In this document: piece by piece, positions 81 through 20,658 of the stretch
Layout: the number at the start of each line of letters is the position of its first letter
Numbering within the stretch: position 1 is the first letter of the stretch
Virus record (IMG/VR): IMGVR_UViG_3300044846_000970
Location: 1-25,049 of that record
Length of the DNA stretch: 25,049 nucleotides
Strand: one strand, 5' to 3'
From: a virus
Notes under the pieces: generated by a model
Told to the model about the DNA's origin: nothing
The model's input: only the letters and a program-made list of their open reading frames with translations
The model's database searches: none
Made by a program: the position numbers and the translations under genes

Positions 81-253
81 TGGACACTATCAAAAACTCA
101 ATGCGCTATTTGCAGCTAGGTATTAAGACACAACCACGACACGACCACTCATTACGCAAGTGGCAGCGTGTTATGTGGTTTATAACCCTGTATGCATGGC
201 GCACGTTCTTATTCTTTTTACTCATTTACTTAATCGCTAATCTTATTTACTAA
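80..253 (+). CDS. small single-pass membrane protein
   Basis: This 57-residue ORF is packed between its neighbours, with TAATG overlaps at both its start and its stop, which strongly supports it being a real gene. The first half is polar and basic (MDTIKNSMRYLQLGIKT, then Arg/His/Lys). The second half, about residues 31-56, is a hydrophobic aromatic stretch (VMWFITLYAW, then FLFFLLIYLIANLIY) that should cross the membrane. I do not recognise a family. Position directly before the tape measure gene suggests a tail-assembly accessory role, but a membrane segment is unusual there and no function is assigned. Confidence 0.65.
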   Translation: MDTIKNSMRYLQLGIKTQPRHDHSLRKWQRVMWFITLYAWRTFLFFLLIYLIANLIY

Positions 254-2364
254 TGGCTGAACCTATTGTACGGAAGTTTGTAATTGACACCACCGAAAGT
301 GAACAAAACCTTAAAGAGTTAAATGTTCAAATCAATGCGACATCAACCGCCATCAATAGTGGTGCGCAGTCGTTTGAGAATGTAGCAGCTGCAGAAGATG
401 AAGTAGTAACATCTACCAAATCACTAAAGGCGCAGCTACGTGAATTACAAGCGCAGTTAGCCAACACCGAACCCGATTCTGCAAAGTATCGCGAACTTGC
501 AGCGGCAGCGGGTGATTTAAAAGACAAGATAGGCGATGCAGCCGAAGCAGTAGGTACACAGGCGGGTGGTGCCTTCGAGCGTGTGAGTGGATCACTAGGA
601 TTAGTCACGTCACGTATCACTAGTCTTGACTTCACAGGTGCTGCAGAAGGTGCGAAGTTATTAGCGTCAAACATCACTTCTATAAAGCCGGGTGATATTG
701 TAAAAGGTATTCAAGGTATAGGTACTGCCTTTGCATCCGTTGGTAAGGCATTACTCACTAATCCTATATTCTTAATAGGTGCAGCCATTGCCGCTGCGAT
801 TGTGTATGCAGATGAACTATTGACATTGGTTGATGGTGTGACAGATGCCGAACTAGAACAATTAGATATTCAAAAGCAACGCGCTGCACAGTCGAAGCAA
901 CAACTGGATGCGATTAGTGACCAAGAAAACATACTGCGATTACAAGGCAAGACAGAGCGTGAGATATTGCAGATTAAAATAGCGCAGGCTAATCAAGCAA
1001 TACTTGACCAAAAAGCGGTAATACAAACCTTAGAGATACAAAGGCAGCAACAGATAGACGCTGCCGAAAGAAATCGTAAAATCACTAGTGGTATTATTCA
1101 GTTCTTGACATTGCCTTTGCAAATCTTGTTAGGTTCGGTTGATACTATTCTTCTTGGATTAAATAAAGTTGGTGTCATTAGCGATGAAACATTTGCTAAG
1201 GTTGGCAACCAGCGTGACAGATTAAATCAAAGCTTAAGCACACTAGTATTTGACCCTGCAGAAGTAGCTAAAGAAGGTGATGCTGCTGTAGCTGAACAGA
1301 AGAAGATACTACAGCAATTAGAAAACCAACAGGCAGGGTTTCAATTATCCGTTAATCAGATAGATCAAAAAGGAATTGATGATAGAAAGGCCGCACAGGA
1401 TAAAGCGGATGCTGATGCACAAGCAAAAAAAGATAAGAAAGCAGCGGATGCAAAAGCAAAACGTGACAAGGATTCAGAAGATGCTAAGGCCGCAGCAGAA
1501 AAAGAAGCAGCAGACAAGTTAAAAGCAGAAGAAGAACTGTTTGATGAGCTGCTAAAATCATTTGAAGAATCCGAAAAGAAAAGAACTGAAATAGCTGCAG
1601 CGGAAGCGGCAAAGAGAAAGAAAGCAGAAGAAGATTATAACACGGCTATAACTGCACTACGTGCCGAACAAGATGCTGCTAATCTCACTCAAGACCAAGC
1701 AGAAATACTTGCAATCGACAATAAGTATTTAGACCTACGAGAGAAAGCAATAGCCGCAGGTGAAAGCACAGTTGAAGTAGATGCCGCATACAAGGCCGCG
1801 CTCGATAAGCAAGAACAAGATAGTGCAGCAAAAAGGATAGCAACCGAGGAAGCCGTGCAAGATGCTAAGTTAGGTTTGGCTAGTGAAGCATTAGGTTCTA
1901 TCAATGCGCTCGTTGGTGCATTTGCTAAGAAAGACGAAGCGAGTGCAAGACGTGCATTTAAAGCACAGAAGGCTATAAGCATAGCACAGGCTACAGTTGA
2001 CACATACAAAGGTGCGAACGCAATCTTTGCAAGTGCAGCGGCTAACCCTGCAACCGTGCTATTCCCTGCACAACCATTCATTGCTGCAGGTTCTGCAATC
2101 GCAGCGGGTATCGCTAACGTTGCCACAATCGCAAAGCAAGAGTTCCAAGGTGGTACGCCCCCGGCTAGTAATGAAACACCACCACCTTCGCTTAGTGATG
2201 GCGGCGGCGGCGGCTCACAGCCTGCAGCATTCAATCCATTTGCATCTTCATTCTTACAAGATAGACCAGAGCAACTAACGCCCCGTGCATATGTCTTAGC
2301 GGGTGATGTGGCAAGTCAACAAGAAGTGCGGATAAAGGTTGAAGACTTATCGCGAATAGGATAA
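253..2364 (+). CDS. phage tail tape measure protein
   Basis: The 703-residue protein is built as tape measure proteins are: long Ala/Lys/Glu/Gln-rich coiled-coil helices with a few hydrophobic patches, near residues 167-190 (FLIGAAIAAAIVYADELL), 279-302 (FLTLPLQILLGSVDTILLG) and 595-626. Residues about 380-480 are a charged AKAKRDKDSEDAKAAAEKEA-type coiled coil. The tail end has a Pro/Gly linker (TPPPSLSDGGGGGSQ) followed by a short module, AYVLAGDVASQQEVRIK, that resembles the C-termini of tape measure proteins of Bacteroidota phages. The family sets tail length at about 0.15 nm per residue, which would imply a tail near 100 nm (inference). It starts with a one-base overlap with the preceding gene. 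Confidence 0.87.
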   Translation: MAEPIVRKFVIDTTESEQNLKELNVQINATSTAINSGAQSFENVAAAEDEVVTSTKSLKAQLRELQAQLANTEPDSAKYRELAAAAGDLKDKIGDAAEAVGTQAGGAFERVSGSLGLVTSRITSLDFTGAAEGAKLLASNITSIKPGDIVKGIQGIGTAFASVGKALLTNPIFLIGAAIAAAIVYADELLTLVDGVTDAELEQLDIQKQRAAQSKQQLDAISDQENILRLQGKTEREILQIKIAQANQAILDQKAVIQTLEIQRQQQIDAAERNRKITSGIIQFLTLPLQILLGSVDTILLGLNKVGVISDETFAKVGNQRDRLNQSLSTLVFDPAEVAKEGDAAVAEQKKILQQLENQQAGFQLSVNQIDQKGIDDRKAAQDKADADAQAKKDKKAADAKAKRDKDSEDAKAAAEKEAADKLKAEEELFDELLKSFEESEKKRTEIAAAEAAKRKKAEEDYNTAITALRAEQDAANLTQDQAEILAIDNKYLDLREKAIAAGESTVEVDAAYKAALDKQEQDSAAKRIATEEAVQDAKLGLASEALGSINALVGAFAKKDEASARRAFKAQKAISIAQATVDTYKGANAIFASAAANPATVLFPAQPFIAAGSAIAAGIANVATIAKQEFQGGTPPASNETPPPSLSDGGGGGSQPAAFNPFASSFLQDRPEQLTPRAYVLAGDVASQQEVRIKVEDLSRIG

Positions 2365-2370
2365 AAAGAA

Positions 2371-2392
2371 AGCCGCCCACGTTTGGACGGCT
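2371..2392 (-). terminator. hairpin, probable intrinsic terminator
   Basis: Arms AGCCGCCCA and TGGACGGCT pair over nine positions with one C-A mismatch around loop CGTT, seven bases after the tape measure stop. The uridine-rich tail (TTCTTTTTAT) lies on the minus strand; the plus-strand tail is TCTGAAAC. As written it is a better terminator for leftward RNA, although a hairpin here could also mark the 3' end of the tape measure transcript. Confidence 0.55.
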
Positions 2393-2459
2393 TCTGAAAC
2401 TAAACCTATTGAAAACAATGCTATGATGAAAACGTGTCAAATATAAATAACTTTGAAAA

Positions 2460-3053
2460 ATGGAAAAAAGAAAAGTAGTAAAATGCGTAATTGATGAAGA
2501 AGGTCGTCTTGGAATTACGGCGATGGGTTTAGTCGATGCGCCCGCGATAGAAGAAAACTGGATTGCACTTTCTAAGGTGCAGCTTAGTGCGGTCAATGAT
2601 GAACGTAAAATGTTATACGGTCCCGCGCTTATACCGGATAAAGAGATATTACGCTATGATGATAAGGGCGAACCTTACTATGTGTACTTTGAAAAGGCTA
2701 CGGTGCAGGCTATAGCGCATCAATTCTTTAAAAAGAATTTGCAGCATACCACCAACCTACAACACGAGATTCCCGTAACAGGTGTGACAGTAGTTGAGTC
2801 ATGGTTGAAAGAGGGTAAGAATGATAAGAGCATCGAACTAGGTTTGCCTGATTTGCCCGATGGCACATGGTTTATTGGCACGCACGTAGACGAAGACCAC
2901 GTGTGGAGTGACGTGAAAGAAGGCAAGATAAAAGGCTATAGCATTGAAGGCTTCTTCAATGAAGTGGGCGTAGCCATGAGCGGTGTCAAAAACTACGAAG
3001 CAGAATTGGTGATGGAGCTTGATGAACTACTAAGCAAAGCAACCAATAAATAA
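2460..3053 (+). CDS. XkdF-like prohead serine protease
   Basis: The 197-residue protein has the layout of the XkdF-type phage prohead protease: an N-terminal strand ending in GLVDAPAI, then LIPDKEILR near residues 57-65, a His in NLQHEIP (His102), the ESWLKEG...DKS segment near 113-124, LPDGTWFIGTHVDEDHVW near 132-149, and KIKGYSIEGFF with the probable nucleophile Ser161. These enzymes cleave scaffold and capsid proteins inside the prohead during maturation. Location two genes before the scaffold and three before the major capsid fits. Assignment is by remembered motif pattern; the exact catalytic residues are inferred. A weak TAACTTTG lies just before the start but has no -33 partner. Confidence 0.82.
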   Translation: MEKRKVVKCVIDEEGRLGITAMGLVDAPAIEENWIALSKVQLSAVNDERKMLYGPALIPDKEILRYDDKGEPYYVYFEKATVQAIAHQFFKKNLQHTTNLQHEIPVTGVTVVESWLKEGKNDKSIELGLPDLPDGTWFIGTHVDEDHVWSDVKEGKIKGYSIEGFFNEVGVAMSGVKNYEAELVMELDELLSKATNK

Positions 3054-3058
3054 CACAT

Positions 3059-4123
3059 ATGATAAATGTAGAAAAGGCACTTGATGTGCTAGGATTACCA
3101 CCCGAATTTGAAGCCTATAACGGGCAGATAAACACGCGCATCACTAATGGCTTTGTTGTGTACGAGAACAATGATTTTAGCAGCGGCAAAAACGTTATAA
3201 CGTACACAGTTGAAAAGACCACCAACACACAACTGTTTGGATTGTATCCGCTCAACTATGCGAGCATGGCACTATACAACATGAGCTTTCAACTTGGAGG
3301 CATGACACCTAAAGGCTACCAGTTGCATTGTCCTAGCAAGTGGATAAAGCATGAGCCGCCAAGTGGTGTAGCCGGGCAAACTGTTTACTACGTAGAAAGC
3401 AATATGTTTTTCAATGTAGATCGCATAGACCTCACATATGAGCCATATGAAACCGTGGTCAATGGTATAGCTGAAGACATGATAGACCCACTTATGCGGG
3501 TGCAGTATAAGTCACGCTTACTAGGTAAGGATGCAACAGGCAAAACAATTATAAAGTGGACAAGTCGTGGTGCGATTACGCCAAAGCGCAGACTGCGCAA
3601 AGCAGAATTCTTGAAGCTTGCTAACATGACAGAAGACGAAATGATTTGGAACTGTCGCTGGGTATTCCCTATCGTGCCTGTTAAGGGTGAAACACACATT
3701 ACATCGATTGCCATGGACATCGAAAAGTTGAATGATACGCAAGTTAAAAGCACGGTGTACATCAACGGCATTGATGCAAACACTTTCAATTATAAAGCGC
3801 TTATCAATTCATTCGGTCAAACGTACGGAGGCTATAAGCAGATGTATCGATTGTACAATGGTGAACGTAGCACACCCACAACCATGAACGTGTACGGTAG
3901 CACCATTGACATCGGACAGAATCCAACTGAAGACAGCACGCTAAACTTACAGGCAGGTGGTGAAAACACGTACAACATCATTAACCGCACACTTACATTC
4001 AATCCGTCCTTAACTGAAGAGGCAAAGCTACTTGCATACATGGAGTTCTTACCTGCCAATGGCAAGAATGAAAGCACGGGAAAATGGTTGAGTTTAGAAA
4101 CGGGAATGGAATCATTTTATTGA
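3059..4123 (+). CDS. unknown protein of the capsid block, probable virion component
   Basis: This 354-residue protein starts five bases after the protease stop and ends before a strong terminator, so it belongs to the capsid transcript. It is rich in beta-prone and aromatic residues (YGGYKQMYRLYNGE, NTYNIINRTLTFNPSL), lacks signal peptide, membrane segment or coiled coil, and carries a basic patch ITPKRRLRKAEF near residue 175. I do not recognise a family. Position between protease and scaffold suggests a head-associated structural protein or a minor tail protein. No enzymatic motif is visible. Confidence 0.7.
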   Translation: MINVEKALDVLGLPPEFEAYNGQINTRITNGFVVYENNDFSSGKNVITYTVEKTTNTQLFGLYPLNYASMALYNMSFQLGGMTPKGYQLHCPSKWIKHEPPSGVAGQTVYYVESNMFFNVDRIDLTYEPYETVVNGIAEDMIDPLMRVQYKSRLLGKDATGKTIIKWTSRGAITPKRRLRKAEFLKLANMTEDEMIWNCRWVFPIVPVKGETHITSIAMDIEKLNDTQVKSTVYINGIDANTFNYKALINSFGQTYGGYKQMYRLYNGERSTPTTMNVYGSTIDIGQNPTEDSTLNLQAGGENTYNIINRTLTFNPSLTEEAKLLAYMEFLPANGKNESTGKWLSLETGMESFY

Positions 4124-4179
4124 TATATTAGCACCGGTTAGTGTAACCGAAAGTAATTAGGTATTTAAGATTAAAAAGA

Positions 4180-4207
4180 AAGGCCCAAACGAGGGCCTTC
4201 TTTTTTT
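4180..4207. terminator. strong, probably bidirectional intrinsic terminator
   Basis: AAGGCCC and GGGCCTT form a perfect seven-pair stem with loop AAACGA, followed by CTTTTTTT on the plus strand. The left flank is TTAAAAAGA, so the minus-strand transcript also gets a U-rich tail. It would end the rightward protease transcript and the leftward ribbon-helix-helix transcript from 4361. Confidence 0.85.
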
Positions 4208-4223
4208 GACACAGTTTACCACT

Positions 4224-4361
4224 TTACAGTATACACGCTCTTACATATTCAGCTAGGTTCATCTTGTGAGCCTTCGCCGCCTTCTGCACAGTCTTAAGTT
4301 GTTTGTCATTTAGCCTAACACTAATCTTAGTGTTCATGGGCAATGGAAGTTTGGTAGTCAT
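4224..4361 (-). CDS. small ribbon-helix-helix (CopG/Arc-like) DNA-binding protein
   Basis: A 45-residue reading frame runs against the surrounding genes in the gap between the 354-residue protein and the scaffold gene. It reads KISVRLNDKQLKTVQKAA followed by AHKMNLAEYVRACIL. That is the ribbon-helix-helix pattern: a short strand with alternating residues (ISVRL), helix A, a turn, and helix B starting NLAEYVR. Such proteins bind DNA as dimers and usually repress promoters. It ends 17 bases from the bidirectional terminator at 4180-4207, so it has its own end signal. I see no convincing promoter. A role as a late-gene regulator is inference. Confidence 0.7.
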   Translation of the reverse strand: MTTKLPLPMNTKISVRLNDKQLKTVQKAAKAHKMNLAEYVRACIL

Positions 4362-4451
4362 AATGTATGTAATTTTTTACAGTCGCTAAGGTAATCAATT
4401 TGGCGCGTGCAACAAAACGCGGTTTTGTCTACTATACCAAAATTACCAAAA

Positions 4452-5051
4452 ATGTCAGATATCAAAAATCAAATCAAAGCAGTCTTCACAAAGTACGGCA
4501 TTGAACCATCTGCACTAGGTATCAAGTTTGAAGAAGAAACAACTGAAGCAGCTACCGAAGTAAAGTTTGCCGTAGAAGGCACGCTTGCTGATGGTACAAA
4601 AATCTACTCAACAGCTGATGAGTGGGTAGTAGGTGTTGACATCTTCACACTAGATGCCGATGGCAACCCAGTCCCAGTACCTGCAGGAGAATACATCCTA
4701 GAAGACGGTGTTACCAAAGTCTACGTAGGCGAAGACGGAATGGTAGCAGAAATCGAACGCGAAGAACAATCTACTGAAATGAGCAGCGAAGACCTCGTTG
4801 CCGTAATAGGTCAATTGTCTGAACGCATTGCTGCACTAGAAGTTGAAAAAACTGAACTAGCTGCTGCAGTAGAAAACGCTAAGAAGGATGCCGAAGCCGT
4901 GAAAGCTGAACTCGCTTCAGTTAAGAAAGCTCCTGCCGTGCCTTCTGTAAAGTCACAAGAATTTAAAAAGAATGTAGCACCTGTGGTTGCATCGAATGGT
5001 AACTCATTCAGCGATTTCATGGAAGGTCTACGTGCCAAACAAAGTAAATAA
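4452..5051 (+). CDS. head scaffolding protein
   Basis: The preferred start is the ATG at 4452 (MSDIKNQIKAVFTKYG), giving 199 residues; an in-frame GTG at 4407 would add 15 residues of poor character. The first half holds a small beta module with DGTKIYSTADEW, PAGEYILEDG and VYVGEDGMVAEIE, a type seen in scaffold and core proteins of Bacteroidota phages. Residues about 110-170 are a long acidic/Ala/Lys coiled coil (LSERIAALEVEKTELAAAVE). The C-terminus SFSDFMEGLRAKQSK is a short basic helix, typical of the capsid-binding end of scaffolds. The gene lies 24 bases before the major capsid gene, the standard order. Confidence 0.8.
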   Translation: MSDIKNQIKAVFTKYGIEPSALGIKFEEETTEAATEVKFAVEGTLADGTKIYSTADEWVVGVDIFTLDADGNPVPVPAGEYILEDGVTKVYVGEDGMVAEIEREEQSTEMSSEDLVAVIGQLSERIAALEVEKTELAAAVENAKKDAEAVKAELASVKKAPAVPSVKSQEFKKNVAPVVASNGNSFSDFMEGLRAKQSK

Positions 5052-5075
5052 TTCACCTCATAATTTTATTTAAAA

Positions 5076-5972
5076 ATGCCAACAACAACTTCACTCACCA
5101 CCACCTATGCAGGTGAATTAGCTGGTGAAATCGTAGCAAAGGCACTATTGTCAAACGTATCAACTCAGTACGTTACAATGAAGCCTAACGTACCTTACAA
5201 ATCAGTAGTACGTAAAATTGATGACACTGTAACATTCGCTGCAGGAACTTGTGATTTCACTCCAACTGGAACAATCACTTTGACTGAGCGCATCTTGACC
5301 TTGGAAGAATTCCAAGTGCAACGCCAAATCTGTAAGAAGGACTTCTTCATTGACTGGACAACTGCAGATGTAATGAGCGGCCGTGTAAACACCCAAATCC
5401 AAGACGCTATTATTGGCCGTTTGGTAGGTGGTATCGCTGCAGCTAACGAGACTATCATGTGGTCAGGTGTTAATGCAACAGCCGGTCAATACGATGGTTT
5501 CGAAACTTTGATTAAGGCAGGCGGTTCAGGTGCTGTATCTGCAGGTTCAGGTGCATTGTCTGACACTAACATCATCGCAACTATTTGGGATGTAATCAAC
5601 ACAGCTCCTGCAGCCGTTAAGGGTGCTGCTGAAAAGCCAGCTATCTACATGGGACAGGCTGCATGGGAATCATACATGCAAGCTCAAATCGCTGCAGGTA
5701 ATGGTTGGTACTTGACAGGTGGCCCTGAGGTTAGCCGTCGTTTCGTAGGCATGTATGAAATCTATGTATGTCCGGGTATGACTGCAAACAATATCATCTT
5801 CGCTCAACCTAGCAACTTGATGCTTGGAACATGGCAGGAAAACCAAATGAACGAAGTGTTCATCTTGGATATGCAGAACTTGGATGGATCACAGAACGTA
5901 CGTTACGGTGCACGCTTCTACTTGGGCGCACAGATTGCAGTTGGTGAAGACATCACCTACTGGGGCGCATAA
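5076..5972 (+). CDS. major capsid protein
   Basis: The 298-residue protein directly follows the scaffold and is followed by its own terminator, as highly expressed capsid genes often are. Codon use is more uniform than in neighbours (frequent GGT, GCT, AAC, ACT). It has the pattern of HK97-fold capsids of Bacteroidota siphophages: GELAGEIVAKALLSN near the start, TLTERILTLEEFQVQRQICKKD with the FFIDW segment near residues 65-95, and a C-terminal part with MYEIYVCPGMTANNIIFAQP and VRYGARFYLGAQIAVGEDI. It builds the icosahedral shell. No cleavage site is obvious. Confidence 0.88.
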   Translation: MPTTTSLTTTYAGELAGEIVAKALLSNVSTQYVTMKPNVPYKSVVRKIDDTVTFAAGTCDFTPTGTITLTERILTLEEFQVQRQICKKDFFIDWTTADVMSGRVNTQIQDAIIGRLVGGIAAANETIMWSGVNATAGQYDGFETLIKAGGSGAVSAGSGALSDTNIIATIWDVINTAPAAVKGAAEKPAIYMGQAAWESYMQAQIAAGNGWYLTGGPEVSRRFVGMYEIYVCPGMTANNIIFAQPSNLMLGTWQENQMNEVFILDMQNLDGSQNVRYGARFYLGAQIAVGEDITYWGA

Positions 5973-5982
5973 TTAAAATAAC

Positions 5983-6006
5983 AAAGGGGGTATAATAGCC
6001 CCCTTT
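5983..6006 (+). terminator. intrinsic terminator after the major capsid gene
   Basis: A perfect eight-pair stem, AAAGGGGG with CCCCCTTT around loop TATAATAG, lies 10 bases after the capsid stop. The T run is only three bases, so it may only reduce read-through to the next gene. Confidence 0.7.
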
Positions 6007-6030
6007 AAACTCTTTAAAATATACATAGCT

Positions 6031-6573
6031 ATGGCTTGTGAATTAACTACAGGTTTTACACTCGGATGCCTTGAAGGTATCGGAGGTGTTAAAGAAGTCT
6101 TGATTGCTAACTACGAAGACTTTGAAAGCGGTATCACTTATGGTGGTACTAATGGCGAAGTAGACGGATTGCCTACGGCTACTATTTATCGCTACGTTCC
6201 ATTCCGCAATAGCGGTTCTTACATTGAGACAGTAAACAAGAACTTGGAAACAGGTACACTTTACTTCTCGCAAGAAGTTGGATGGACTTTCGGTAAGCTC
6301 AACCAAGATATGCGTAACGAATTCTTGAATGTAGCAAAGGCTAAAATGATTGTATTTGTACGTACCAATGATGACCAAATCTTGTTGGTAGGTGCGGGCG
6401 AAGGCTCACAGCTTACTGCTGGTACTGTACAATCAGGTGCACAGAAGGCGGATTTGATGGGTTACCAAGTTACAACAGTTGCTGAAGAACTTTCACCAGC
6501 TGTACACCTTGAGCCGTTCACCTCTGTACCATTTGACAACTTCGCAGGTATTACTGTAAGCCCTGCTTACTAA
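6031..6573 (+). CDS. probable tail tube (major tail) protein
   Basis: This 180-residue protein is placed between the capsid and portal genes and flanked by terminators on both sides, as expected for a very abundant virion protein. It starts MACELTTGFTLGCLEGIGGVKEV and has YRYVPFRNSGSYIETV, GTLYFSQEVGWTFGKLNQDMRNEF and IVFVRTNDDQILLVGAGEGS. I recall this pattern from structural proteins of Bacteroidota phages that behave as major tail or tube subunits. The size and beta-rich character fit a tube protein. Alternative: a head decoration protein. The role is inferred from pattern, size and context. Confidence 0.62.
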   Translation: MACELTTGFTLGCLEGIGGVKEVLIANYEDFESGITYGGTNGEVDGLPTATIYRYVPFRNSGSYIETVNKNLETGTLYFSQEVGWTFGKLNQDMRNEFLNVAKAKMIVFVRTNDDQILLVGAGEGSQLTAGTVQSGAQKADLMGYQVTTVAEELSPAVHLEPFTSVPFDNFAGITVSPAY

Positions 6574-6608
6574 GACTTTGTCTTGTTGTTTTTGTATTCA
6601 TTGTGTGT

Positions 6609-6639
6609 AAAGGGGGCGGTGCTTGTGCTGCCCCTTTTT
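6609..6639 (+). terminator. intrinsic terminator after the tail-tube-like gene
   Basis: AAAGGGG pairs with CCCCTTT, and an inner GC pair is possible with one bulged G, around a loop of about 12-15 bases. The stem runs into TTTTT at 6635-6639. It sits 36 bases after the 6573 stop. Confidence 0.78.
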
Positions 6640-6651
6640 AAATAAATAAGC

Positions 6652-7041
6652 ATGATATATCTAACTACCAACACAGCGAATCAAACCGTCTACCTTTCAT
6701 TAGATGAGGCACGCCAGTACTACGCTACTGCGTTCACTCACTATCTTATCATAATCACACACGAAGAAAATAGCACAACGGGCGAAGAACTTGCGCAGGT
6801 TGCAACTATAGTGTTGGAAAATGTGCGCATTACGCAGCTCACAGTAACGACCGTAGGTCTTACCTTAGCGGGGCGTTATCGCTATGTGGTATATGGACAA
6901 AATAGTTCTAGCAATATTAACCCTACGAATGTTAGTGTTGTGGGTGTTGTACAACGTGGCTACGTTGTGTTGACAGATAACGAGCAGTTCTATGATGTAC
7001 CTAGCGAAGTAATATCTAATGACATTATCTATGGAGCATAA
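6652..7041 (+). CDS. conserved Bacteroidota-phage hypothetical protein
   Basis: The 129-residue protein starts MIYLTTNTANQTVYLSL and continues with YYATAFTHYLIIITHEEN, VENVR-like strands and GRYRYVVYGQNSS. I recall proteins of this shape (short N-terminal strand, then a beta-rich body with a RYRYVVY-type segment) near portal and capsid genes of Bacteroidota phages, where they have no settled function. It is likely a small virion protein. The end overlaps the portal start, suggesting coupled translation. Confidence 0.65.
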   Translation: MIYLTTNTANQTVYLSLDEARQYYATAFTHYLIIITHEENSTTGEELAQVATIVLENVRITQLTVTTVGLTLAGRYRYVVYGQNSSSNINPTNVSVVGVVQRGYVVLTDNEQFYDVPSEVISNDIIYGA

Positions 7042-8959
7042 AGAATCGAATATAGTTAGCTTGAAGCTTAGTGAATATGTAGCTAAGTCCGATGCTGAAA
7101 AAGTAGACCGCAAAGGTTGGGTTAACTACGGTGACCAAAACGACTTCCCACAATACCTGCGCGACCTTGCGCATGAATCACCCGTACACGGTAGCCTTGT
7201 TGTTGCCATTGGTGATATGATAGCTGGTAAGGGTATCAAGTCAGAACAATACCAACAAGAATTAGACGCACTCGATGTAAACACTTTGACGTATGCAGCC
7301 GCACACGACTTGAAGTTGTTTGGTGGTTTCTTTATCGAAGTCATTTGGTCTAATGATCGCACAGTTATTAGCAAGCTAAACCCGATACCATTTGAAGAAT
7401 GCCGTATTGCAGTTAACCAAGATGATGATAGCGAGATAGGTATATTTCACAGCTACGACTGGAGCAACACACGTAAGAAAAAAAACACGCCCGAATTCAT
7501 ACCAAAGTATAACTACCTTACACGTAATGAAGAGCCGCGCCAAATCTATTGGTGCTTTACCTACACAGGCAGCGATGTCTATCCACGTCCTGATTATTGG
7601 AGTGCGATTAATTACATTGAACTAGACAAACAAATTTCGATATTCCATATCAATCAAATCTCAAACGGTTTATTTCCTTCAACCATTATTAACTTCTACA
7701 ACGGGCAAGCAACGCCCGAACAGAAGCAGCAGATGATGATGGACTGGGAAAACAAGATGAGTGGTGCGCGTAATGCAGGTAAGGTGGTAATGTTCTTTAA
7801 CGAGCGCGACCAACCAAAGACTGAAATCACACCATTCCCAGTTAATGATGCGGATAAGCAGTATCAATTAATGGATACTACCGCAACACAAAAGATAATA
7901 ACCGCACATCGTGTTACTACGCCACTTCTTTTCGGTATACGCGAAACATCAGGCTTTGGTAGTAACAAAGATGAAATGACAACGGGACTTGAGATATTTA
8001 ATAAGCAAGTCATTGAGCCATATCAAACACTAATCGATAAGAGCATCACGGAGTTATTAAGTAATCAAATGCCGGGTGTTTCTTTTGAGATTGTACCAAA
8101 CACACCACTTGTAGCAGAACAGGCATCTGTCGTAACCGATGCAAGCGCAACAGGCACTACTGCAGATGTCGCTGCTACAGCTTTGAATGGTGCGCAGATT
8201 ACATCACTCGTTGACATCGTAATGCAAAGTGCTGCAGGTGCAGTTCCTGTGACAAGTGCGAAGGCTATTGTGCAGGCTGCATTCCCAACATTGCCAGCGG
8301 CTACGGTTGATGCAATCTTTGCGGATGTATTGCCCGGTAGTTTGCAACCTCAAGAGGTCATCATGAGTGACGAAAAAAAAAAAGATGAAACCATAGGTGA
8401 TGCGCTTATAGCATTAGGCGAAGAACAAAGCGAAGACTGGATATTGATAGATTCATTTAACGCAGATGAAGAAATTGAACACGAGTTTGCAGTTCGCACA
8501 GGTGCTGCTAGGCCCGCCGCTAAGAGCGAGCAGGATGCTATTATCGATGGTAAATACTTTATTACTCGTTACGTTTATGCAGGTAGCTTTAGCCATGATA
8601 ATATGCGCCCATTCTGTAAGAAGATGATGGAAGCGGGCAAGCTATACCGCAAAGAAGACATCGTGTCAATGGAGAATGTTGCGGTTAATCCCGGATGGGG
8701 GCCTGAAGGAGCGGACACATACGACATTTGGTTTTACAAAGGCGGTGGTAACTGCAGGCACTTTTGGGAAAAACGAGTTTACGTAGATGCAAAAGGCGCG
8801 AAGATTAATCCTAATGACCCAGATGCAAAGCGTATCGCTGTGAGCATGGCTGAACGTATGGGCTACAAGGTGCGTAATAACGCATTAGTAGCAAAGCTTC
8901 CTGAAGATATGCCATACAATGGCTTCCTACCTACTAACCCTATTTACGGTAATCAATAA
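7031..8959 (+). CDS. portal protein with a C-terminal minor-head-like extension
   Basis: The first 400 or so residues match portal proteins of Bacteroidota phages: WVNYGDQNDFPQYLRDL near the start, SPVHGSLVVAIGDMIAGKG, FFIEVIW, a central helix-rich region, and VTTPLLFGIRETSGFGSNKD. The portal dodecamer forms the DNA entry channel. The next part, SLVDIVMQSAAGAVPVTSAKAIVQAAFP, is also usual in such portals. The last 150 residues form an extra domain with RYVYAG, RPFCKKM, LYRKEDI, VNPGWGPEGADTYDIWFYKG and GGGNCRHFW, resembling the Cys/His-containing ends of MuF-type head morphogenesis proteins (inference). An in-frame ATG at 8363 could give the C-terminal part alone. The upstream ATG at 7019 would add four residues. 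Confidence 0.83.
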   Translation: MEHKESNIVSLKLSEYVAKSDAEKVDRKGWVNYGDQNDFPQYLRDLAHESPVHGSLVVAIGDMIAGKGIKSEQYQQELDALDVNTLTYAAAHDLKLFGGFFIEVIWSNDRTVISKLNPIPFEECRIAVNQDDDSEIGIFHSYDWSNTRKKKNTPEFIPKYNYLTRNEEPRQIYWCFTYTGSDVYPRPDYWSAINYIELDKQISIFHINQISNGLFPSTIINFYNGQATPEQKQQMMMDWENKMSGARNAGKVVMFFNERDQPKTEITPFPVNDADKQYQLMDTTATQKIITAHRVTTPLLFGIRETSGFGSNKDEMTTGLEIFNKQVIEPYQTLIDKSITELLSNQMPGVSFEIVPNTPLVAEQASVVTDASATGTTADVAATALNGAQITSLVDIVMQSAAGAVPVTSAKAIVQAAFPTLPAATVDAIFADVLPGSLQPQEVIMSDEKKKDETIGDALIALGEEQSEDWILIDSFNADEEIEHEFAVRTGAARPAAKSEQDAIIDGKYFITRYVYAGSFSHDNMRPFCKKMMEAGKLYRKEDIVSMENVAVNPGWGPEGADTYDIWFYKGGGNCRHFWEKRVYVDAKGAKINPNDPDAKRIAVSMAERMGYKVRNNALVAKLPEDMPYNGFLPTNPIYGNQ

Positions 8960-8967
8960 TTACAACT

Positions 8968-9537
8968 ATGCCTGAAGTACTATTAATATCCGAAAACTTT
9001 GTAAAGAAGTACACCACCGTAAATGGTAGTGTTGACCCGAACCTTATCTATCCTGCCGTATATCTTGCGCAGGATAAGTGGTTGCTTCCATTTTTGGGAA
9101 CTGATTTGCTTAACAAGATTAAAGCAGATGTGGCCGCAGGTACAATAAGCGGTAATTATGAACTACTACTAGAGGACTACATCCAAAAGATGCTTCTTTG
9201 GTGGGTAATGGTGGAGCTTATGCCTAACCTTAGCTACCGTATGGACAATGGCACGTTAGTACAACGTCAAAGTGAGGACACTGTAGCGGTAAGTGATTTA
9301 GTCATGAAGGATATGATTGACCGTGCAAGGCAAAACGCAGAACACTACACCACTTTACTAGTTGATTACTTGTGTGCTAACAACGCTTTGTTCCCGGAAT
9401 ACAGCACAGCAACATGGCCTGATAGATCACCAAGGACGGATGTGACAAATACGCTCAACTATCAATTTAGTACGGGCAACACGGCCACAAGTTTCCGTCC
9501 TACTTACAGTCGCAATATCATTAACCGTATACCATGA
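8968..9537 (+). CDS. DUF6712-like head-tail connector protein
   Basis: The 189-residue protein is mostly helical and starts LLISENFVKKYTTVNGSVDP, then IYPAVYLAQDKWLLPFLGTDL, a GNYELLLEDYIQKMLLWWVM helix and a C-terminal stretch ending NALFPEYSTATWPDRSP. This is the pattern I associate with the DUF6712 family of Bacteroidota phage proteins, found next to portal genes and thought to be head-tail adaptors. It begins nine bases after the portal stop and ends as ATGA with the next small gene. Adaptor function is inferred from helical make-up and position. Confidence 0.72.
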   Translation: MPEVLLISENFVKKYTTVNGSVDPNLIYPAVYLAQDKWLLPFLGTDLLNKIKADVAAGTISGNYELLLEDYIQKMLLWWVMVELMPNLSYRMDNGTLVQRQSEDTVAVSDLVMKDMIDRARQNAEHYTTLLVDYLCANNALFPEYSTATWPDRSPRTDVTNTLNYQFSTGNTATSFRPTYSRNIINRIP

Positions 9538-9656
9538 GTGATAAGAAGACACTAAAACAAGAATACACCGAAAGATTAAGACGTTATGAACGCGAGCTTT
9601 CACTTAAACTACGTGCAAATGGCAACAAAGAAGCAGATAAAAGCAAGTCAAAATAA
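9534..9656 (+). CDS. small basic hypothetical protein
   Basis: This 40-residue ORF begins with an ATGA overlap on the connector gene and ends inside the following membrane-protein gene. It is highly charged (MSDKKTLKQEYTERLRRYER, ending KEADKSKSK), predicted as a single helix. No family is recognised. The coupling overlaps on both sides support translation. Confidence 0.5.
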   Translation: MSDKKTLKQEYTERLRRYERELSLKLRANGNKEADKSKSK

Positions 9657-10032
9657 CGAGGCTATCAAGAAGCTACGTTATAAACTAGAGTTATTTGATG
9701 GCTTTTGGTCTATACCGATTGCCTTCTTGATTTTTAGTGTGAGCGGTACGCTATCATACCAATATTTTGGTGATGCTTTGATAAGCACGGAGTACATCCA
9801 GTATGTAATCCTAGCAGGTCTTATCATGGTCTTCGCCAACTTCATTGTGTTCATGGGCATACGCTTCAACTTCCGCTCACTGCAGCGGGAAATCTATTCA
9901 CGCGACATCAAAGAAGAACTTAAAACGTCACTAACTACATGGCAAAAAATCTCTTTATATCTGCTGTTGTACTTTGCTTATTTTGCTGCCTTCCTATTCA
10001 TACTGCGCACGCTAATGACGGTTATTGTGTAA
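9619..10032 (+). CDS. three-pass membrane protein, holin candidate
   Basis: The ATG at 9619 (MATKKQIKASQNN) gives 137 residues; an in-frame ATG at 9586 would add 11. After a basic N-terminus there are three clear membrane segments: FWSIPIAFLIFSVSGTLSY, IQYVILAGLIMVFANFIVFM and ISLYLLLYFAYFAAFLFIL, with a charged loop FRSLQREIYSRDIKEELK between the second and third. It sits directly before the endolysin gene, whose start lies 94 bases inside it. Size, topology and position fit a class I-like holin, but no family signature is visible, so this is inference. Confidence 0.6.
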   Translation: MATKKQIKASQNNEAIKKLRYKLELFDGFWSIPIAFLIFSVSGTLSYQYFGDALISTEYIQYVILAGLIMVFANFIVFMGIRFNFRSLQREIYSRDIKEELKTSLTTWQKISLYLLLYFAYFAAFLFILRTLMTVIV

Positions 10033-10514
10033 GGCTAGTAGCCTATGCGCACGTTGGTGTTCGCGAGAAAGGCGGTAACAACATGGGCTTTAACGACCGC
10101 TACTTTGAGCGGCTTATGCGCGAAGTAGGGTGGAAGCCTACCTACCAATGGTGCGCATTCTTTGTACGTGCCGTATTCCATGAGTGTAATGTCGATGCAA
10201 AATCTAAAGTGACAGGGTGGTCACCTACGTGCTACAACAAAAAGGATGTAATCTTTACAGATGGGAGGTTCTATCAATCCTATAAGCCGGGTGATGTGCT
10301 AGTAATGACACTATCATACAAGCATTGGCGCAATACAAATAGGTACAAGGCTATTGGTCACACAGGAATAGTAGATAAGGTTAGTGAATATTCAGTACGC
10401 ACCATTGAAGGCAACACCAATGATCGTGGTGATAGAGATAGCCGCTTAGGTGATGGTGTGCTAGTTAAGATAAGACCATTGAATAAGTCAATACACATAA
10501 CAAGATGGAACTGA
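9939..10514 (+). CDS. secreted CHAP/NlpC-P60-type endolysin
   Basis: The 191-residue protein opens with a signal peptide, MAKNLFISAVVLCLFCCLPI, with a cleavage motif AHA-N near residue 26. The mature part has HVGVREKGGNN, the nucleophile Cys72 in YQWCAFFVRAVF, PGDVLVM near 117-123, His141 in IGHTGIVDKV, and Asn159 in IEGNTN. The ordered Cys-His-Asn triad and these flanking motifs mark a papain-like CHAP or NlpC/P60 peptidoglycan peptidase or amidase. Export by the host Sec system means the holin may only be needed to trigger release. The entire signal peptide coding region overlaps the end of the membrane-protein gene. Confidence 0.83.
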   Translation: MAKNLFISAVVLCLFCCLPIHTAHANDGYCVRLVAYAHVGVREKGGNNMGFNDRYFERLMREVGWKPTYQWCAFFVRAVFHECNVDAKSKVTGWSPTCYNKKDVIFTDGRFYQSYKPGDVLVMTLSYKHWRNTNRYKAIGHTGIVDKVSEYSVRTIEGNTNDRGDRDSRLGDGVLVKIRPLNKSIHITRWN

Positions 10515-17416: not shown

Positions 17417-18715
17417 CTACGCCCACGAATAGCTGCCGTAATTTGGGAATAGTTCAAAGTACATGCGCATCATTATGGCATCAGCGTAGTCAGGACTCTT
17501 GCCGTGCATGCGGGCTATCTCATCTTTGCTTATCACAGCAAGTTTGCCGTCTGCTTCGGGTTGCCTTCTGCGTATCATGTCCAGTTCTTGCACTATCACA
17601 TCCCGGAACTGTGACACTTTAAAAATTATTTTATTCTGTTCGATTAATTCTGCAAGCTTGAAATAACATTCTGCCTTTTGGTTGGTGAACTTATCGGCTT
17701 GCTTAGCACGGCCACCATTAAGGAACCCCCTGCAACGGAGCGCATCAACCGCACCCCCTCCAACCCCATCTTCATCACAGATCACATTGCTAAGTTTGAT
17801 GCTGTGCCTGTCGCATAGTTGACGAATGGTGGCAACTACGGTGGTGATAGGTTGTTTACGTAGCTCGTGTATTTCCATTAACTGCAATCCATGCCACACA
17901 CATATGACGCTACGGTCTTTTCCTAGTCGTGCGATGTCTGCACTTATATATTTTTCTCCTTTGCTTTCTTCATCCCGGAAGCAGCGCACTAAATCATCGT
18001 ACTGGTAAAGGTTGTCTACGCTTTCATCGTATTCCCAGTCACCGTGTAATAGCCTTCGTCTATCTATTTCGGGCAAACGTTCTAGCGTTTCAAGATAGCT
18101 TTCAGGTAGGTGTGGGTTGTCAGTAGGTAGTGAAGGGATAAACGCCAGGTGTTGTGGCAAACTATCCATCTTATGTGGTGCGTAGAACTCATTGTAAAGC
18201 CATCCTTTAGATGGATTGCAAGTGAGTAGCATCTTTGGTGGCAAATCATATTCGCGTAGCTTAAAACGAATGCGGGACTGGAGTATATCTATCGCTCGTT
18301 TGCTAACCTGTGCCGCCTCGTCTACGTAGGCATCTGTTAATTCCAACCCGCCTAGGCTATGGAACTCCGCATCTGAAGGGTATGCAAAAAGGTCTTTGAG
18401 TATTATCTCGCTGCCATTGCTGAATGTTATAACGTGCGTTTGATTGTTGATGGTGTAGTGTTCATTAGGTGCTAAGCCTAACATGTGCGCTACTTCAAAG
18501 AATGTCTTTAGCGTGGTCTTCTTTAACGTATCCAACTTGCTACGGCCTATCAAACCTCGCGTGCCTGGATACTTGAACCTGCGGCTTATTTGCCATGCAC
18601 AACCTATGAACGACTTACTTCCACCTGCTGCACCTCCGAATAGCACCACACGTGCCGGGTGTGAATTACCCAGTACGCGTAGTGCTTCATTTTGTTTCGG
18701 TAGGTACTCAATCAT
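17417..18715 (-). CDS. terL: terminase large subunit
   Basis: The 432-residue protein shows both terminase modules. The ATPase has Walker A GGAAGGSKS (residues 27-35), Walker B TDAYVDEAAQ (Asp132, Glu133) and a coupling-motif-like LLTCNPSKGWL (about 163-173). The RNase H-like nuclease has YISADIARLGKDRS (Asp260), VICDEDGVGGG (Asp314-Asp316) and SPDYADAIMMR near residue 410. It pumps DNA through the portal and cuts concatemers. Unusually, it is encoded in the leftward early/replication operon, next to an SSB-like gene (TAATG overlap), away from the portal and from the small-subunit candidate at 24524. Confidence 0.93.
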   Translation of the reverse strand: MIEYLPKQNEALRVLGNSHPARVVLFGGAAGGSKSFIGCAWQISRRFKYPGTRGLIGRSKLDTLKKTTLKTFFEVAHMLGLAPNEHYTINNQTHVITFSNGSEIILKDLFAYPSDAEFHSLGGLELTDAYVDEAAQVSKRAIDILQSRIRFKLREYDLPPKMLLTCNPSKGWLYNEFYAPHKMDSLPQHLAFIPSLPTDNPHLPESYLETLERLPEIDRRRLLHGDWEYDESVDNLYQYDDLVRCFRDEESKGEKYISADIARLGKDRSVICVWHGLQLMEIHELRKQPITTVVATIRQLCDRHSIKLSNVICDEDGVGGGAVDALRCRGFLNGGRAKQADKFTNQKAECYFKLAELIEQNKIIFKVSQFRDVIVQELDMIRRRQPEADGKLAVISKDEIARMHGKSPDYADAIMMRMYFELFPNYGSYSWA

Positions 18716-19289: not shown

Positions 19290-19976
19290 CTAATACTCGT
19301 TTTGCTGTTCAATCAATTCGCGGTAACGTTCCTTCCTAAACTCTGTGAACTGGTACGGCTTGTTGTTATACACGCGGAAGCGCATATCATTGTCCCATGA
19401 AGGCAGTTCATCGTATTCATCCATCAGCATTTGTTCAAACCGTGACGGCTTGGAACGCTTTGCTTCTTGTGCCGGAGCTTCTTCTATCTTCAACTTATCC
19501 GCTGCCTTTTGGATAGCGTCCACCACCTGCGGATGTTGGAACATTTCGTAGATGTTGTTGTTGCTTTGTTGGTCTTTCACCATACGTGTAGTTACCGCAT
19601 CACGCTTGCTAAAAAACTTGCGTATCCATTCAAAGAATACTTGCCCATCAATGCGATTGTATACCGGTCCATATTCACCTTTCATTGCCATTCGAAAACA
19701 CATTTTAAATTCTTCAACACGCAAGTAGTAGTATTCTTCAATAATCAATTCAGCAGTTAGCATCAGTTGTTGTGGACTCATTGGTTGTTGCAAATTAAAG
19801 TACTGCTGACACTCATCCATAAGCGCAATTAAAACACTTAACGCAGCTTGTTCTCCTTTAGCTTTTCTAATCTCACTCAGTGCTGGTGATGTCTTGGTCG
19901 CTAAAACTTGTTGCAACGCTGTTTCGATATTGTTCACGGAACTTCTCAAGTTCGCTAGCTCGTTTTTCTCTTTCAT
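19290..19976 (-). CDS. DUF6633-like replication-associated protein
   Basis: The 228-residue protein contains MSPQQLMLTAELIIEEYYYL and then EEFKMCFRMAMKGEYGPVYN followed by RIDGQVFFEWIRKFF, about residues 66-122. This is the pattern I associate with the DUF6633 family, found beside replication initiators in Bacteroidota phages and elements, where a helicase-loader-like or primosomal role is suspected. N-terminal residues are a coiled coil; the C-terminus is acidic and aromatic. Its first 104 bases overlap the end of the initiator gene in another frame, suggesting coupled synthesis. Confidence 0.7.
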   Translation of the reverse strand: MKEKNELANLRSSVNNIETALQQVLATKTSPALSEIRKAKGEQAALSVLIALMDECQQYFNLQQPMSPQQLMLTAELIIEEYYYLRVEEFKMCFRMAMKGEYGPVYNRIDGQVFFEWIRKFFSKRDAVTTRMVKDQQSNNNIYEMFQHPQVVDAIQKAADKLKIEEAPAQEAKRSKPSRFEQMLMDEYDELPSWDNDMRFRVYNNKPYQFTEFRKERYRELIEQQNEY

Positions 19977-20658
19977 TTTGAATTATGTTTTTTGGTTTTT
20001 GATTTTTGATTTTATCCCATTCCCGGCGCATCCAGTTCTTAACTGTGCTTTGCCAATCCTTCATTGATGTCTTGCCTACTATCCATCCATTGGCTTCATA
20101 GTGATCCATAAAGGTGCGGGCGAAATTAACTAACTGAACCTCGTTCATAAAATTCCTACCCGCTGCATTTAGTTCGCCCATCAGGTTGTAGACATCATTC
20201 TCATGAGGCTTCACAAACTTTTTGCGCGTAGTCTTTTTTTCATTTGCATCTTCAATTATAATTTCATTTTCATTTATATTTTCATTTTCATTTACTAAAG
20301 GCATTGCCGTGGCATATGCCGTAGTAGATGCCGTGGCATCTGTATCACAAGTTTGATTTTTTCTTTTTTTCCATCCATCAATAGCACGCACACGCTGCTT
20401 TTCAGCATGAGCCTTACGCTTATCTATTTCAATTTCAAGGCGTGCATTAAAAAAAAGTCCATCATCATCTTGCTGAAACTTTGCCAGCACATCTGCCGTG
20501 GCATTGCCGCAGCATAGCCGTATCATCTTTTCGGTTAAATGTCCTTTTTGATGTTGTAGGCAAAGCAAAGTGATGTATTGACCACGTTCTTCCATAGTCA
20601 AATCCTGCACACCCGAAATGAAATCGGATGAATAAAAAAGAAAAGCCGGGTCTTTCAT
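19873..20658 (-). CDS. replication initiator / DnaT-like protein (DUF1376-type N-terminus)
   Basis: The 261-residue protein begins with AFLFYSSDFISGVQDLTMEE followed by RGQYITLLCLQHQKGHL, the DUF1376-type winged-helix start seen in phage replication initiators. A Thr/Ala and Asn/Glu-rich linker follows (DATASTTAYATA, NENENINENEIIIED; about residues 105-140), then a helical domain with WQSTVKNWMRREWDKIKN typical of phage O- or DnaD-like proteins. It should open the phage origin and recruit helicase. The linker DNA holds tandem repeats that could be its binding sites. A promoter and structured leader precede it. Confidence 0.75.
   Translation of the reverse strand: MKDPAFLFYSSDFISGVQDLTMEERGQYITLLCLQHQKGHLTEKMIRLCCGNATADVLAKFQQDDDGLFFNARLEIEIDKRKAHAEKQRVRAIDGWKKRKNQTCDTDATASTTAYATAMPLVNENENINENEIIIEDANEKKTTRKKFVKPHENDVYNLMGELNAAGRNFMNEVQLVNFARTFMDHYEANGWIVGKTSMKDWQSTVKNWMRREWDKIKNQKPKNIIQNEREKRASELEKFREQYRNSVATSFSDQDITSTE
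20230..20339. repeat. candidate replication origin: tandem 12-bp iterons beside AT-rich DNA
   Basis: Plus-strand TGCCGTGGCAT occurs at 20305-20315 and 20329-20339, with TGCCGTAGTAG at 20317-20327 exactly between: three units at a strict 12-base spacing. A fourth perfect copy lies at 20494-20504. The unit is itself nearly palindromic (ATGCC-GT-GGCAT). Beside it, 20230-20294 is very AT-rich with repeated ATTTTC/TTTCAT blocks. Iterons within the initiator gene next to an AT-rich stretch resemble the lambda O/ori layout. Coding repetition is the alternative explanation. Confidence 0.5.

Follow-up and report, generated by a model that had tools for sequence, protein, structure and literature searches.

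A probable phage replication origin within the coding region of a DUF1376 initiator gene

The virus record IMGVR_UViG_3300044846_000970 (25,049 bases, possibly a fragment; hereinafter, the window) very probably carries a phage replication origin within the coding sequence of the phage's own initiator. The putative origin consists of an array of short repeats and an AT-rich tract at 20233-20338, together with an auxiliary pair of repeats at 20494-20514, and would be worked by the DUF1376 protein that is encoded over it, through binding, melting and helicase recruitment (Table 1). The case is built from comparison of sequences, namely the sites themselves, their conservation as DNA, the local extreme of AT content, the joint exchange of the N-terminal domain of the initiator and the repeats among relatives, and the helicase loaders and helicases encoded beside relatives of this gene. 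An earlier note on this DNA had proposed an in-gene origin of the lambda O/ori type, and both the DNA-level conservation of the repeats and the exchange of the repeat class along with the N-terminal domain argue for this reading. GC skew, tried as an origin locator, was discarded: in this fragment, the total skew tracks gene orientation and the third-position skew is close to zero in every gene group, so that skew is uninformative on the position of the origin. Given that the window may be a fragment, a second origin could lie elsewhere.

Table 1. Coordinates of the putative origin, the initiator gene and the adjacent partner gene in the window
Feature	Position	Strand	Remarks
Initiator gene, 261 aa: DUF1376 N-domain, low-complexity linker, helical C-domain	19873-20658	minus	ORF, Pfam, PHROG, AlphaFold model
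DUF1376 domain, residues 8-79; predicted winged-helix-like; proposed iteron-binding domain	20422-20637	minus	
Degenerate iteron TGCTGCGGCA	20505-20514	minus	GGC AAT codons invariant in relatives
Iteron TGCCACGGCA within the DUF1376-domain coding sequence	20494-20503	minus	Codons GCC-RCG-GCA invariant in 14/14 diverse relatives
Iteron TGCCACGGCA, linker unit 1	20329-20338	minus	
Degenerate iteron TACTACGGCA, linker unit 2	20317-20326	minus	TACCACGGCA here in most relatives
Iteron TGCCACGGCA, linker unit 3	20305-20314	minus	
Half-site TGCCT closing the iteron run	20299-20303	minus	Met/Leu-Pro codons; Pro codon CCT in 13/13
AT-rich stretch with GAAAAT-type hexamers; proposed DNA-unwinding element	20233-20298	minus	AT maximum of the record; change-over point of recombinants
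C-terminal helical domain, residues 149-220	19999-20214	minus	Common to relatives with differing N-domains
Conserved partner gene (phrog_35728), overlapping the 3' end of the initiator gene; proposed helicase-loading partner	19290-19976	minus	

All repeat units and the AT-rich tract are located inside the initiator gene. The repeat copies listed in the earlier note, TGCCGTGGCAT at 20305-20315, 20329-20339 and 20494-20504 and the variant TGCCGTAGTAG at 20317-20327, are correctly placed, and conform to an iteron consensus, TGCCRCGGCA, with the linker units set at 12-bp steps and the middle one being degenerate; on the coding strand, the linker reads GATGCCACGGCATCTACTACGGCATATGCCACGGCAATGCCT, then TTAGTAAATGAAAATGAAAATATAAATG. 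A fifth unit had been overlooked; it is also degenerate, its coding-strand sequence is TGCTGCGGCA, and it is spaced 11 bp from the fourth one. Each unit is near-palindromic, TGCC-RC-GGCA, a symmetry that had not been remarked on: the perfect units in the window have the form TGCC-AC-GGCA, and the GCCGCGGC variants found in relatives are perfect palindromes. The sequence GCCACGGCA occurs three times in the record, both strands included, compared with 0.11 occurrences expected under a first-order Markov model, and all three copies fall within the initiator gene.

The AT-rich stretch that was claimed to lie next to these repeats is borne out as well. The segment 20230-20294 is 83% AT, and the most AT-rich 65-bp segment anywhere in the record begins at 20234 (85% AT). 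The AT maximum of the locus falls within this tract in 55 of 78 relatives, and the tract is within the top 1% in 68 of 78. The 79 relatives taken from viral contigs have mutually related loci, so that locus counts are not counts of independent events, and the decisive tests were run on non-redundant sets. In the relatives from genome assemblies, a tract of the GAAAAT or AATATA type usually comes after the iteron run; another branch has (CCAACA)n, which encodes TPTPTP, and CATAAT or TTACCC hexamers are found elsewhere, so the tract is AT-rich in some lineages but not always. The hexanucleotide tract usually comes directly after the iterons (at about gene position 440 in L241, about 6890 in the L155 locus and about 1190 in the L142 locus, and at 20233-20298 in the window), with the encoded dipeptide varying by lineage: NE (GAAAAT), TP (CCAACA), HN (CATAAT) or LP (TTACCC). 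Such tracts might reflect slippage or a role of the DNA.

The alternative that survives best, itself improbable, is that the repeats are operators for the DUF1376 protein or for another regulator, through which it governs its own transcription or the expression of early replication genes, with the origin located elsewhere. Initiators often autoregulate, near-palindromic 10-bp repeats are typical of operators as well, and the internal pair at 20494-20514 is closer to the gene start. The main cluster, however, lies approximately 320-355 bp into the gene, next to the most AT-rich part of the record, and the operator explanation does not account for the constant order of iterons followed by an AT-rich tract, which is seen in most relatives. 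The internal pair on its own may be either a distal iteron or an autoregulatory operator; loci L069-L071 have GCCACGGCA in the place of its degenerate unit.

The origin reading gains from the way in which the initiator genes are assembled. The relatives have a common C-terminal half and several classes of N-terminal domain, each class with its own repeat. N-domains ending in KQR..GWKKR are accompanied by GCCRYGGC units in 43 of 45 cases (of the other two, L049 is a truncated fragment, and its linker escaped the automatic search), those ending in SRRNNR by CATATG-core units in 31 of 31 and by GCCRYGGC units in none of the 31, and SRRxNGxxGGRP domains by CCTAATGG-like units in 10 of 12. Direct reading reveals ACGGCATTG-like repeats in the fourth class, where the automatic count found them in two of five members; the single member of this class that was tested has no Pfam match. 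The same C-terminal domain is joined to a different N-domain in L055, L056, L064, L065 (where this domain lacks a Pfam match) and L066, along with these loci's own repeats of the ACGGCATTG or ACAGCATTG type.

Recombination between the classes can be traced within the gene. Pairs drawn from different classes are 42-59% identical up to the end of the iterons and 97-99% identical beyond this point in three of four pairs, as in L022/L042, L037/L066 and L022/L066 (42-56% identity before the iterons), whereas the downstream identity of L003/L026 is 78% owing to another change-over close to the 3' end. It is within the AT-rich tract that the recombinants change over. The same pattern is seen in a second branch, where L241 and L244 are 95.5% identical over the 447 nt after the linker, compared with 52% before it, and where L241 has GCCACGGCA, L244 carries four 11-bp TCAACGRACGC-like units that run through all three frames. 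In these alignments, the N-domain and the repeats are exchanged as one, as expected of an initiator and its binding site. It is highly improbable that the repeats instead serve another DNA transaction, be it packaging (pac), transcription antitermination or recombination, as a hot spot for module exchange, even with a recombinant change-over right beside them: the repeat class tracks the class of the initiator N-domain, which a packaging or antitermination site need not do, the terminase gene is elsewhere (17417-18715), and the change-over occurs in the AT-rich tract, with the repeats moving together with the N-domain.

The presence of the repeat in three reading frames, the invariance of its codons and the comparison with synonymous recoding jointly indicate that it is selected as DNA, and not only as protein. 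Retention of the Thr/Ala linker with altered codons would have spoken against the lambda-type proposal, and the reverse is seen in the relatives, where the DNA unit is preserved and the encoded residues vary. Across the relatives, one unit is read in all three frames, with SHG/CHG or MPRH/PRQ in place of ATA. Thus, AGCCACGGCAATGCCACGGCAATGCC is translated as SHGNATAM in L058 and L061, and TGCCACGGCAATGCCACGGCA as CHGNATA, inside the DUF1376 domain, in L069 and L071; the repeat region of L068 is translated as SRGIAAA, L143 and L147 read ATAMPRH, and L155 reads ALPRQCHGNA. The residues between the units vary among S, Y, N, H, D and M, with the units retained.

A search that was blind to genes leads to the same family. 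The pattern GCCRCGGCANTGCCRCGGCA, which represents a pair of units spaced by 11 bp, was scanned over 2.9 million viral contigs and matched 22, in 20 of which, according to the reading of ORFs and Pfam results, it falls in a DUF1376-type gene (L144 and L154 are the exceptions); the translations at the pattern are ATAMPRH, ALPRQCHGNA, CHGNATA and SHGNATA, which cover all three reading frames. The 12-bp triple is within DUF1376 genes in 33 of the 35 matching loci with a GC content below 50%, and the 34th (L098) is a truncated copy of a DUF1376 gene. The triple pattern also matches GC-rich stretches that encode perfect amino acid repeats (AAPAAS, HGTAHG, PRGS) unrelated to DUF1376; these were set aside.

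When 14 diverse relatives, including the window, are aligned by codon, the internal site GGC-AAT-GCC-RCG-GCA shows no codon variation where the residue is shared, compared with a mean same-residue codon identity of 0.50 elsewhere in the DUF1376 domain and with values of 0.64 and 0.31 for the codons right after the site. Synonymous-codon resampling of the initiator gene reached three copies of GCCACGGCA in 0 of 20,000 trials. When 83 non-redundant linkers were compared with their synonymous recodings, an excess of repeated 8-mers was detected in 50 at p<0.01, the window and ydaU of the Escherichia coli Rac prophage being among these (p=0.0005), and in 62 at p<0.05; for the 33 linkers that fall short of p<0.01, either the test is weak or iterons are absent. 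The notion that the Ala/Thr linker is a spacer selected as protein, with the DNA repeat as a by-product, in line with its low complexity and predicted disorder and with the ability of slippage to give tandem ATA codons, has next to no probability and is rejected because the frame and codon data contradict it: one DNA unit encodes different peptides in three frames, codon invariance is confined to the units, and resampled genes never regain the three copies.

The protein encoded in the window matches the Pfam family DUF1376 (PF07120) with E=1e-6 and 29.4 bits, just below the cut-off of 30.1, and this is its sole Pfam match; other genes with the same repeat exceed the cut-off (L142, L143, L145 and L147). 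The protein also matches the PHROG ‘primosomal protein' (E=8.6e-15). Of its earlier description as a ‘DUF1376/DnaT-like initiator', the relationship to DUF1376 stands, and the likeness to DnaT was not confirmed. In the AlphaFold model, the N-terminal and C-terminal parts are ordered and residues 104-145 are disordered. Structural comparison of the N-domain produced weak-to-middling matches to winged helices (e.g. Z 5.6 for the ORC2 WH and Z 3.7 for the DnaD N-domain), and the Foldseek search with the initiator model gave no significant match, with the DnaD N-domain at the top rank (E=2.8). A search of solved structures with the protein profile gave nothing useful, the annotated phage collection only distant partial matches, NCBIfam no match for the proteins of the window, and the Rfam and tRNA scans of the window no hits.

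If the array functions as an origin, the winged-helix-like DUF1376 domain would bind the TGCCRCGGCA iterons, probably as dimers, with the 11-12-bp spacing bringing the sites to the same face of the helix. Binding would then melt the adjoining GAAAAT-rich stretch, and the C-terminal domain, the putative contact with the helicase-loading side, would bring in the helicase together with the product of the gene just downstream. Homologues of this partner gene are present in 84 of the retrieved loci; it has no recognised helicase-loader domain in Pfam or PHROG, and its predicted structure has no informative match. Among the genes that come after DUF1376 genes in relatives are those for a DnaC-like helicase loader (L061, L068), DnaB (L071) and a Toprim-helicase (L074).

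Origins within initiator genes are known from several phages. In ori-lambda, and likewise in Stx phages, O-binding iterons, each an imperfect 19-bp inverted repeat in lambda, are located in the middle of gene O and are followed by an AT-rich unwinding tract (PMC7466680). The window resembles this organisation in having dyad-symmetric iterons in the middle of the initiator gene and an adjoining AT-rich tract, but differs in the size and spacing of the units (about 10 bp every 11-12 bp) and in the extra codon-invariant pair in the sequence for the DNA-binding domain. The N-domain shows no match to the lambda O family (DUF1376 alone in Pfam); the sole link to PHROG 678, ‘replication initiation O-like', comes from a relative, L241, by way of its C-terminal part. 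The arrangement in the window would, by this comparison, work like ori-lambda but with an initiator of a different family. Lambda, P22 and L have distantly related O-like initiators, each with its own in-gene iterons; gene 18 of P22 and L is described as a possible distant homologue of lambda O and, in Salmonella phage L, contains six 11-bp repeats, TGTCCAACGGA (PMC8022706). In L244, the 11-bp units (TCAACGRACGC type) look similar to those of gene 18 of phage L.

The oriL of Bacillus phage SPP1 consists of direct repeats and an AT-rich element inside gene 38, whose product, gp38, is the origin-binding protein and acts alongside a helicase loader, gp39, and a helicase, gp40 (PMC6316719). Here the likeness to the window is one of arrangement, the window having no recognised loader or helicase. 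A parallel within the DUF1376 family is the Rac prophage of E. coli, which carries an active origin, oriJ (PMC3945230). The Rac gene ydaU encodes a DUF1376 protein (92 bits), its linker contains two copies of TGTTCAAACA, one of TGTTTGAACA and related units, mostly at 11-13-bp steps (L160, 5512-5590), and the next gene encodes the IstB/DnaC-like YdaV. The ydaU-ydaV pair is like the window in combining DUF1376 with linker repeats and unlike it in the sequence of the repeats. On the strength of this pattern, the ydaU linker repeats are a candidate location of oriJ.

The genome assemblies that contain DUF1376 relatives belong to Bacteroidota, Clostridia and a few other groups, with matches in Escherichia as well, and the GCCRCGGCA class of repeats is retained in deeply diverged members, on contigs with GC contents from 27% to 69%. 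There is a reasonable, if less secure, case that DUF1376 comprises sequence-specific replication initiators on a very broad scale, from phages and prophages across several phyla, each carrying its origin in the form of dual-coding linker iterons that are free of any fixed frame, with exchangeable pairs of N-domain and iterons. The family is still of ‘unknown function' in Pfam, the literature search found nothing that links DUF1376 to an origin or an initiator role, and such a broad origin-carrying initiator family appears to be undescribed in the literature searched. Should the proposal hold, a widespread, unnamed family of phage genes would become a testable replication initiator, and the origins of many uncultured phages could be found from sequence as DNA-level repeats in the DUF1376 linker. 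The pairs of N-domain and iterons would be a natural collection of initiator and DNA-site specificities, and the natural recombinants that pair an N-domain with a repeat class should allow the DNA-recognition code to be read. The linker would also be a clear example of a dual message, protein and origin, in one sequence, with one DNA unit used in three frames.

Elsewhere in the window, the late genes occupy 253-10514 on the plus strand, with the tape measure gene at 253, a protease-like gene at 2460, a capsid-like gene at 5076, the portal gene at 7019 and the endolysin gene at 9939. The series runs opposite to the customary head-to-tail arrangement, and the terminase gene lies on the opposite strand. 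The portal protein (7019-8959) has approximately 290 extra C-terminal residues past the matched portal region.
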